Position numbers and translations under genes: made by a program
Shown: in pieces, positions 1,815-27,838 of the stretch
Layout of the letters: the number at the start of each line of letters is the position of its first letter
Position numbering within the stretch: the stretch's first letter is position 1
Notes under the pieces: model-generated
Told to the model about the DNA's origin: nothing
Seen by the model: the letters and a program-made list of their open reading frames with translations, nothing else
Databases searched by the model: none
NCBI GenBank assembly: GCA_902610845.1
Contig: CACLXJ010000005.1
Location: 1-64,000 of the forward strand
Direction: 5' to 3'
Origin: an uncultured Alphaproteobacteria bacterium
GTDB lineage: Bacteria > Pseudomonadota > Alphaproteobacteria > HIMB59 > GCA-002718135
DNA length: 64,000 bases

Positions 1815-2261
1815 ATGAGAATTGCACTCTTTGAACCTGATATTCCTCAAAATGCTGGAAACATATTTAGACTAGGTGCCTGTCTTGGAATACCAATAGA
1901 TATAATAGAGCCAGCTGGCTTTGTGATTGATGATAAAAGACTAAAAAGAGCATCAATGGATTATTTTGATTATCTTGATCTCACAAAACATTTGAGTTGG
2001 GATAAATTTAAAGAATGGTCAAAAGAAAATTCTTATAGATTAATTTTGCTTACAACAAAAAGTCAAAAAAGTTATTTTGATTATAAATTTCAATCAAATG
2101 ATATTATTTTATTTGGAAGAGAAAGTGCGGGAGTGCCTGAGTTTATTCATGAATCAGTAAATGAAAGATTAACTATACCAATGATAAAAGGGCCTAGATC
2201 GATTAATCTTAGTAGTTCAGTTGCTATTGTAGCTGGTGAAATGTTACGTCAATTAACTTAA
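1815..2261 (+). CDS. trmL: tRNA (cytidine(34)-2'-O)-methyltransferase, SpoU/TrmH family
   Basis: MRIALFEPDIPQNAGNIFRLGACLG and FGRESAGVPEFIHE / IPMIKGPRSINLSSSVAIVAGE motifs of the SPOUT family. Confidence 0.93.
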   Translation: MRIALFEPDIPQNAGNIFRLGACLGIPIDIIEPAGFVIDDKRLKRASMDYFDYLDLTKHLSWDKFKEWSKENSYRLILLTTKSQKSYFDYKFQSNDIILFGRESAGVPEFIHESVNERLTIPMIKGPRSINLSSSVAIVAGEMLRQLT

Positions 2262-3115
2262 GTTAAGCTTCCCATCTTGCCATCTTGATAGTCCATCATT
2301 GCTTGCTTGATTTCTCCTTCAGAATTTGCCACAAAAGGACCATAACGTGCTACAGGTTCTTTAAGCGGCTTACCTGCTAAAACTAGGTAGGATCCTTTTT
2401 CTGATATTGACGTGAGTTGAATCTCATTACTTGACTGATCAAAGTAAATCATATCACCTTTATTAGCGATTTTATCTTCCTCGTTAAATTGTAATTGACC
2501 ATCGATAATATAGATCATAAGATTTTGTTCTTTATCAACATTAAACTTTGTCATATCTGGTTTTGAAAATTGAATATCAAATATTGATACAGGTGAATAT
2601 GTTTGAACTTTGGATTTGGTTCCATTTATTTCACCCACAAGAACTTTAATTTCTATATTTGCATTTTCAGATACTGTTGGAATAGTGTTTCTTTTAATAT
2701 GTTGATACCAAGGTTTAACTTTTTTATTTTTTTGTGGAAGGTTTACCCAAATTTGTAATCCTTGCATGACACCTCCACTCTTCTTAAATTTTTCAGTTAC
2801 TAATTCAGAGTGAATTAAACCTGATCCAGTTGTCATCCATTGTACATCACCAGTTTCAATTTCTGCCTGTCCTCCAAATGAGTCTCTATGTTCTACTTCA
2901 CCACCAAGCATGTAAGTAATTGCCTCAAATCCACAATGAGGATGTGCTGGTACCCCGGTTGCACCTCCCGGTTCATAATTAATTGGGCCGAAATGATCAA
3001 AAAGAAGAAATGGATCATTTTCTCTCATTCCGGGGACAGGGAAAGCTCTCGTTACAGGTATCCCGTCACCCTCGAAAGTCTTCATACACTCTTTAATTTC
3101 TATTATTTTTCTCAT
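2258..3115 (-). CDS. Pirin family protein
   Basis: DPFLLFDHFGPINYEPGGATGVPAHPHCGFEAITYMLGGEVEHRDS and GDVQWMTTGSGLIHSE, characteristic of pirin cupins. Confidence 0.93.
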   Translation of the reverse strand: MRKIIEIKECMKTFEGDGIPVTRAFPVPGMRENDPFLLFDHFGPINYEPGGATGVPAHPHCGFEAITYMLGGEVEHRDSFGGQAEIETGDVQWMTTGSGLIHSELVTEKFKKSGGVMQGLQIWVNLPQKNKKVKPWYQHIKRNTIPTVSENANIEIKVLVGEINGTKSKVQTYSPVSIFDIQFSKPDMTKFNVDKEQNLMIYIIDGQLQFNEEDKIANKGDMIYFDQSSNEIQLTSISEKGSYLVLAGKPLKEPVARYGPFVANSEGEIKQAMMDYQDGKMGSLT

Positions 3116-3158
3116 AAATTTGTTTAAAAATTATTGAGATATAGATATAGGTATCATT

Positions 3159-3242
3159 ATGAAAAATCAAAATCCAAACCCACCAAAGTGTGGTTGCAGT
3201 TGTAGCTGTTGCTGTACTTGCGAAGGTGGAGGGTGCTGTTAG
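3159..3242 (+). CDS. 27-aa cysteine-rich mini-protein, metallothionein-like candidate
   Basis: ATG at 3159, TAG at 3240-3242; MKNQNPNPPKCGCSCSCCCTCEGGGCC (9 Cys of 27). Weak SD-like AGG at 3149-3151. Below the length cutoff of the ORF track. Adjacent to the zinc transport locus. Confidence 0.6.
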   Translation: MKNQNPNPPKCGCSCSCCCTCEGGGCC

Positions 3243-3253
3243 TTAACACCCTC
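3229..3253 (+). terminator. Candidate hairpin overlapping the 3' end of the Cys-rich ORF
   Basis: Perfect 7-bp inverted repeat GAGGGTG (3229-3235) / CACCCTC (3247-3253), 11-nt loop; followed by AT-rich sequence but no clean U-tract. Confidence 0.4.
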
Positions 3254-3282: not shown

Positions 3283-4437
3283 CTAACAACCTTTAAGTTC
3301 ATTTCCTAAGTTTTGTATTAACTTAAAATAAAGATCTTTATTTGAGTCAATATTAGCACCTAGAGGATCAAAAACTCCTGTTTTGATATTCATGTCTTCA
3401 GCAATTGTTGTAATTATCTTTGGATTGAACTGTGGTTCAGAAAAGATACATTTAATTCCTCTATCCTTAATTACATCTTGAATATCAGCAATCTGTTTAG
3501 CACCAGGTAAAACATCCGTGTTCAAAGTAAGCGCTCCAGCAGCTCTAGTTTCAAATCTTTCTTCAAAGTATTGATAAGCATCATGGAAGACAACAAACTT
3601 TGCATCTTTATTTATTTCTTTTTCAATATCCTTAACTAATTGATCTAGTGCTTGAATTGTAGCTTGTGCATTAGCTTCATATTTATCCTTATTTGCTGGA
3701 TCTAAATCACTTAACTCATGAGCAATTTCATGAACCATTTCTTTTGCATTCATTGGATCTAACCAAATGTGAGCATCAAATTCACCATGTGCATGACCGT
3801 GATCGTCGTGTCCACTGTGATCATCATGGTCATCGTGATCATCATGGTCATCGTGATCATCATGGTCATCGTGATCATCATGGTCGTCATGGTCATCATG
3901 GTCATCATGGTCATCGTGATCATCATGGTCGTCATGGTCATCATGCTCATCGTGATCATCATGATCATCATGGTCATCGTGATCATCATGATCTTCATGG
4001 TCATCGTGATCATCATGATCGTCATGGTCATCATGATCGTCATGGTCATCGTGATCTTCAAAAATTGATTCTTCTCTAAACTTCAATTTATTAATACTTT
4101 CAACTTCCATGAACTCTATAACTTCTGCATTTTTGACAATTGACTCAAGAGGTCTTTCCATGAACGTTTCTATACTTTCACCAACCCAGAATATGATATC
4201 TGCTTCTTCTAAAAGTTTGGCATGAGAAGGTTTTAATGTAAAACTATGGGGGGAAGTACTTCCTTCAATTATAAGTGCTGGTTCACCTACACCATCCATT
4301 ACATTCGCAATTAGTGAATGAAGTGGTTTAATTGTAGTTACAACTTTTAATTCTGCTCTTACAGCTGAAGTTGCAACTAAAATTGATGAAAAGAAAAATA
4401 CTTTCAAAAGCATCAAAAAAATGTTGTTTTGTCTCAT
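3283..4437 (-). CDS. znuA: Zinc ABC transporter substrate-binding protein with very long Asp/His repeat loop
   Basis: Signal peptide; VVTTIKPLHSLIANVMDGVGEPALIIEGSTSPHSFTLKPSHAKLLEEADIIFWVG; GEFDAHIWLDPMNAKEMV; FVVFHDAYQYFEERF; ISEPQFNPK-type C-lobe; divergent from znuCB. Confidence 0.96.
   Translation of the reverse strand: MRQNNIFLMLLKVFFFSSILVATSAVRAELKVVTTIKPLHSLIANVMDGVGEPALIIEGSTSPHSFTLKPSHAKLLEEADIIFWVGESIETFMERPLESIVKNAEVIEFMEVESINKLKFREESIFEDHDDHDDHDDHDDHDDHDDHEDHDDHDDHDDHDDHDEHDDHDDHDDHDDHDDHDDHDDHDDHDDHDDHDDHDDHDDHDDHSGHDDHGHAHGEFDAHIWLDPMNAKEMVHEIAHELSDLDPANKDKYEANAQATIQALDQLVKDIEKEINKDAKFVVFHDAYQYFEERFETRAAGALTLNTDVLPGAKQIADIQDVIKDRGIKCIFSEPQFNPKIITTIAEDMNIKTGVFDPLGANIDSNKDLYFKLIQNLGNELKGC
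3817..4059 (-). repeat. In-frame tandem repeat encoding 27 consecutive (D/E)(D/E)H triplets
   Basis: 81 codons of 9-nt units; first three 18-bp units (gtgatcatcatggtcatc on + strand, 3817-3870) identical; 24 DDH, 2 EDH, 1 DEH. Confidence 0.97.
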
Positions 4438-4478: not shown

Positions 4479-4497
4479 AATGTTATAATATTACATT
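4479..4497. promoter_or_regulatory. Candidate Zur-binding palindrome between znuA and znuC
   Basis: AATGTTATAATATTACATT: 19-bp dyad with 8 of 9 arm positions symmetric, in the 79-bp divergent znuA/znuC intergenic region; resembles proteobacterial Zur/Fur-type boxes. Confidence 0.6.
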
Positions 4498-27734: not shown

Positions 27735-27838
27735 AATTAATGGAAGGAGTTGAGACCCAAACAAGATTGTTACAGCTGCTTCTTTTCAGATCTGACTGGA
27801 TTAGCAATTTATTTGCCCTCAATCCTCCCTGTAGCAAT
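27735..27838 (-). ncRNA. ffs: Signal recognition particle RNA, small bacterial type
   Basis: Reverse strand: ...GGGAGGATTGAGGGCAAATAAATTGCTAATCCAGTCAGATCTGAAAAGAAGCAGCTGTAACAATCTTGTTTGGGTCTCAACTCCTTCC; domain IV match (TCAG..TCT-GAAA-AGA-AGCAGC, GNRA tetraloop) and terminal stem; immediately upstream of dnaX. Ends approximate. Confidence 0.85.

Follow-up and report, generated by a model that had tools for sequence, protein, structure and literature searches.

A conserved 27-residue, nine-cysteine mini-protein encoded next to a zinc-uptake operon: a candidate metallothionein-like peptide of one alphaproteobacterial order

The mini-gene and its flanks

The window, i.e., the whole 64,000-nt stretch of DNA that was analysed, belongs to a host genome assembly of 1.08 Mb, from an uncultured marine bacterium, that is 59% complete. 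A very short gene lies close to the start of the window, between pirin and the zinc-uptake gene znuA. The features that matter here are as follows:

3159 to 3242, + strand: mini-gene with a 27-aa cysteine-rich product, nine Cys spaced C-x-C-x-C-x-C-C-C-x-C-x4-C-C (translation, conservation, dN/dS)
2258 to 3115, minus strand: pirin, the divergent neighbour, with murJ in its place in some relatives (Pfam Pirin, synteny)
3116 to 3158, + strand: divergent intergenic region of 43 bp, common to pirin and the mini-gene (alignments, Zur scan)
3229 to 3253, + strand: hairpin GAGGGTG...CACCCTC spanning the mini-gene stop codon (folds, window z -2.3)
3283 to 4437, minus strand: znuA, the convergent neighbour, outside the mini-gene transcription unit (Pfam PF01297, ZnuA)
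4480 to 4496, no strand assigned: Zur-box-like palindrome ATGTTATAATATTACAT, between znuA and znuC (Zur scan)

Translation of 3159-3242 on the + strand yields MKNQNPNPPKCGCSCSCCCTCEGGGCC followed by a stop codon, in exact agreement with the original prediction of a complete, 27-residue ORF with nine cysteines. Cysteine accounts for one-third of the product, and scanning for its spacing pattern gives a single match in the 64-kb window and no match in any of 100 dinucleotide shuffles. The mini-gene is unannotated, its short length having led gene callers to pass it over; one copy among the relatives starts with GTG.

Pirin, on the minus strand, starts 43 bp upstream of the mini-gene, confirming the divergent arrangement that had been described, and the znuA stop codon lies 40 bp downstream. 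The placement immediately downstream of znuA, also claimed at the outset, is correct in that the mini-gene adjoins the znuA 3' end, but the two genes converge and the mini-gene is outside the znuA operon. With pirin divergent and znuA convergent, the mini-gene does not share a transcript with the zinc operon. Its promoter must sit in the 43-bp region 3116-3158, where alignments reveal a conserved TATAGGTAT-like stretch directly 5' of the ATG.

At its other end, the mini-ORF runs into a hairpin. In relatives with murJ as the upstream neighbour, the last part of the ORF itself supplies the 5' arm of a strong, longer hairpin followed by a U-tract on the + strand (z -4.6 at L022 and -4.3 at L005), a terminator-like arrangement of the kind that would be expected if the mini-gene had its own terminator; the window hairpin is weaker than these and has no U-tract.

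Two further observations concern the window itself. ZnuA contains a long Asp/His-rich (DDH)n tract (3759-4061), the length of which differs greatly between relatives, the whole protein ranging from 321 to 530 aa. Positions 27736-27831 on the minus strand match the bacterial small SRP RNA (Rfam RF00169, E 6.8e-10).

Occurrence across genomes and codon-level selection

The mini-gene was recovered from 75 of the 111 genomes of the family at 81-100% identity, and all 75 carriers belong to the window's genus; pirin served as the anchor for finding related loci. Of the 52 genomes in a second family within the order, 36 encode a 26-aa orthologue, MDNNKPKPDCGCSCSCCCTCGDGCCQ (67-73% identity over the match). 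In alignments, the orthologue has the same nine cysteines as the genus protein, and the segments C-G-C-S-C-x-C-C-C-T-C and C-C are invariant in both families.

Fourteen genus genomes without a match were checked: znuA is present in only three and pirin in two others, and for most of them the locus is absent from the assembly; in G012, one of the three with znuA, the contig ends before the mini-gene site is reached. By contrast, in G002 and G008 znuA is followed by murJ and the mini-gene is absent from a clean intergenic region, which means that real losses occur. These two losses, together with a second-family genome that is 99% complete and has no mini-gene, show that the gene is dispensable.

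Where the gene is kept, its protein sequence is tightly constrained. The 37 distinct DNA alleles of the genus give pS 0.42, pN 0.027 and dN/dS 0.046, and the second family gives a dN/dS of 0.039; these values are biased against nonsynonymous change because the set was gathered by a core-motif pattern. A second set of 59 synteny-anchored copies, defined by pirin and the first codons, gives dN/dS 0.046 as well (58 copies, one frameshifted copy omitted), as compared to 0.067 for the pirin genes of these genomes. All nine cysteines are kept in 57 of the 59 copies. The exceptions are L079, with a frameshift near the end of the mini-gene that is possibly a sequencing error, and L081, which carries C11F and E22K. 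A single-base insertion or deletion, as found in L079, also affects the copy at L286:1974-2039 (G006), which apart from this change is complete in its original frame and may reflect an assembly error.

Variation falls on codon position 3 in 22 of 26 codons and on positions 1 and 2 in 5-6, and the frame test returns a ratio of 0.061 for frame 0 and 0.17-7.9 for the other five frames. In alignments, the mini-ORF has changed far less than its flanks. Ser14 and Ser16 have AGY codons in the genus, and Ser14 has a TCN codon in the second family; Ser14 is thus kept despite a two-step codon switch, i.e., the residue is conserved and not the DNA. The mini-ORF codes for protein, and purifying selection on it is strong. 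The alternative that it is a chance ORF, or a non-coding RNA or 3'-UTR element between convergent genes, would fit the 3'-end hairpin and a length below gene-caller limits, but selection at the codon level is seen in the assigned frame only and conservation spans two families and survives the change of both flanks. A chance ORF is ruled out by dN/dS, and the probability of the alternative as a whole is negligible.

Searches for known relatives returned little. The mini-protein matches no Pfam or NCBIfam family at E<=10 (hmmscan, which has low power for 27 aa) and no PDB entry (a search weak for 27 residues); tblastn found no phage or plasmid match, and a literature search for the string CGCSCSCCC gave none. 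Searched with a profile, 395 class and 399 phylum genomes produced only weak matches (E 0.005-0.04), which were rejected on reading as internal or out-of-frame stretches of unrelated frames. Matches to the Cys-spacing pattern in the 395 class genomes, outside the order, were discarded as mainly TGC/TGT-repeat low-complexity DNA, and a degenerate pattern run against viral contigs found no short ORF resembling the mini-protein among the matches listed. Within the sampled genomes, and with searches that are weak for 27 residues, the family was found in one order only.

The proposal of a conserved, metallothionein-like gene that annotation had missed is thus strongly supported by occurrence in both families and by dN/dS, with the class assigned by composition. 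The grounds on which it was to be abandoned (no conservation, frameshifts, decay) were checked against the relatives, and none applied.

Two neighbourhoods and the question of zinc

In all 118 genus locus records with readable flanks, many of them the same genome counted via two routes, the mini-gene is directly followed, in convergent orientation, by the 3' end of the zinc operon: znuA in 34 records, DUF1636 in 30 and an 84-aa ORF in 54. On the upstream side, 103 records have pirin and 14 have murJ. Within the genus, the gene has therefore kept its place at the end of the zinc operon although its other neighbour varies, and a fixed link to pirin was rejected since murJ substitutes for it in some relatives. 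In sister species, the operon reads znuA-CobW-WD40-84-aa ORF-(DUF1636), with CobW being a COG0523-type GTPase. The CobW-WD40-84aa-DUF1636 module lies between znuA and the mini-gene at L036:1110-3809 and L044:1538-3853 and in L142 and L287; it is absent from the window's species.

The second-family orthologue has a different setting: its neighbours are not zinc genes and it is not near znu. It is usually found beside a gene for the proteasome-type protease Anbu and a circularly permuted ATP-grasp gene, and is convergent to a conserved membrane ORF:

L137:6057-6215, also in L131, L132 and L284: 52-aa membrane ORF of the second family

This ORF, unannotated, is downstream of Anbu and overlaps the end of the mini-gene by 7 bases. 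Anbu is present in 37 of the 52 second-family genomes and coincides with the mini-gene with few exceptions (near-coincidence at L137:5983-6944 and in L281 and L282). A fixed link between the two was nevertheless rejected: the Anbu gene is absent from all tested genus genomes, and in G121, which carries both the mini-gene and the 52-aa ORF, other genes occupy the place expected for Anbu. In part of the second family, a 306-aa protein that has no Pfam match is encoded divergently from the mini-gene (L131:6249-7169, L136:4846-5766). The position of the mini-gene is independent of the neighbouring operons.

These arrangements bear on two alternatives. A RiPP-type precursor, with cysteines modified by a maturase, would be short and Cys-rich, and the second-family copy is close to Anbu and the ATP-grasp gene; yet no leader-like segment is present, the genus neighbourhood contains no maturase and that Anbu gene is missing from the tested genus genomes, making a RiPP quite improbable. 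Still harder to sustain is a cis-acting, cysteine-responsive leader peptide (attenuator) akin to the mycobacterial polycysteine uORFs. Such attenuators exist in the literature, and the mini-ORF shares with them its shortness and a run of Cys codons, the CCC tract. However, the mycobacterial leader ORFs precede co-directional genes, while the mini-gene is followed by no same-strand gene in any arrangement, the next gene being convergent everywhere; purifying selection also acts on Pro, Gly, Ser and the C-terminal CC. Gene orientation led to the rejection of an attenuator.

Regulation was assessed by a Zur scan with 130-nt control windows (95th percentile -1.5). All 62 znuA/znuC intergenic regions contain the palindrome, which we take to be the Zur box, as ATGTTATAATAT(T/A)ACAT or a one-base variant, with scores of 23-25.6. 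Upstream of the mini-gene, where the best score is 4.3 and the median -5.8, there is no Zur box, and the hypothesis of such a box at the mini-gene was rejected. The mini-gene is thus no recognisable member of the Zur regulon, and its other surroundings in the second family also argue against membership. No recognisable metal-responsive operator was found at the mini-gene.

The original prediction had tied the peptide to the znuA-znuCB-zur locus as a zinc-specific buffer or metal-transfer peptide, and this link is half borne out. In its favour, the zinc-operon tail is the next gene in every readable genus flank, and the sister-species operon has gained CobW and DUF1636. Against it, the mini-gene is on the opposite strand and convergent to the operon, has no Zur box, and resides elsewhere in the second family; synteny with znuA is kept throughout the genus and not in the second family. 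Furthermore, znuA persists without the mini-gene in G002 and G008. A functional tie to zinc uptake is possible, and can be advanced only tentatively.

A putative minimal metallothionein and known systems

With nine Cys in 27 or 26 aa, arranged in CxC and CC motifs, the proteins of both families have the high-cysteine character of the metallothionein-like class. Their consensus sequences are free of His and of aromatic residues, the spacers between cysteines are Gly/Ser/Thr, and no hydrophobic stretch or signal peptide is visible in the mini-protein. This composition and the strict conservation of Cys spacing would fit a cytosolic, all-thiolate metal cluster, and the mini-gene probably encodes a cytosolic metallothionein-like peptide. 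After translation, the nine cysteines would wrap a small polynuclear metal-thiolate cluster of d10 ions, Zn(II), Cu(I) or Cd(II), and thereby buffer or sequester metal, with the N-terminal PNPPK stretch forming a polar tail. We infer translation of the mini-protein, metal binding, and the stoichiometry and metal identity of the cluster.

The one-third Cys content, and genomes that appear to come from sunlit oligotrophic plankton, could also suggest a thiol-redox or cysteine-store peptide in which cysteines act as a reductant or sulfur reserve and not as metal ligands. Exact spacing of nine cysteines and retention of Gly/Ser/Thr would be needless for a store, and this role is unlikely.

For the metallothionein-like peptide, a position beside the zinc operon throughout the genus tips the balance slightly towards zinc. 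Cu(I) stays nearly as likely, given that a Zur box is lacking, that the second-family copy is located elsewhere and that fungal copper thioneins of 26 aa are similar in size. A Cu(I)-thionein that works as do the 26-aa copper metallothioneins of Neurospora and Agaricus would match the mini-protein in its lack of His as well as in size, but no copper gene is nearby in either family and the Cys spacing differs; this reading is only slightly less likely than the zinc-specific one.

On sequence grounds, the product is best read as a new, lineage-specific metallothionein-like peptide. A broader proposal has roughly even chances: that these proteins of 26-27 residues, with a complete nine-Cys cluster, form a minimal metallothionein family in their own right, restricted to one order of streamlined ocean-surface Alphaproteobacteria, whose gene is a separate transcription unit and has shifted from one neighbourhood to another (zinc-operon tail, Anbu region). 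If so, these peptides would rank with the shortest bacterial metallothioneins known. If metal-binding, the peptide would represent an encoded metal buffer roughly half as long as the metallothioneins known from bacteria, in a group that is abundant in the open ocean and has a poorly known metal economy. Streamlined genomes keep a gene that costs nine cysteines per 27 residues, and the peptide is short enough for solid-phase synthesis.

Metallothioneins of the SmtA/BmtA type are about twice the length of the mini-protein, and MymT has about 53 aa. SmtA/BmtA and the Pseudomonas MT (Pfam PF02069 type) resemble the mini-protein in being small, Cys-rich, cytosolic and, by inference, metal buffers. 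SmtA adopts a GATA-like zinc-finger fold and contains hydrophobic residues as well as His ligands (PMC10612145), whereas the mini-protein, with neither His nor aromatics in its consensus, shows no sign of such a hydrophobic core and matches no curated model in hmmscan, at its low power for 27 aa; on these features it falls outside that family. The MymT-type mycobacterial Cu metallothionein is also a small Cys-rich bacterial protein (PMC10612145), but its Cys spacing differs and the mini-protein has no family match.

The fungal family-8 copper metallothioneins, e.g., Neurospora crassa MT with 26 aa and 7 Cys, follow the spacing X2-CXC-X5-CXC-X3-CXC-X2-C-X3 (PMC4755600). Compared by eye, the mini-protein departs from this pattern, with nine Cys, a CCC tract and a terminal CC, and it has no detectable homology with these fungal, non-bacterial proteins. 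Nonetheless, the two are alike in their length of about 26 aa, their abundance of CxC motifs, their Ser/Gly spacers and a Cys share of about a quarter to a third (PMC4755600), and in size the fungal Cu-metallothionein would be the closest functional analogue.
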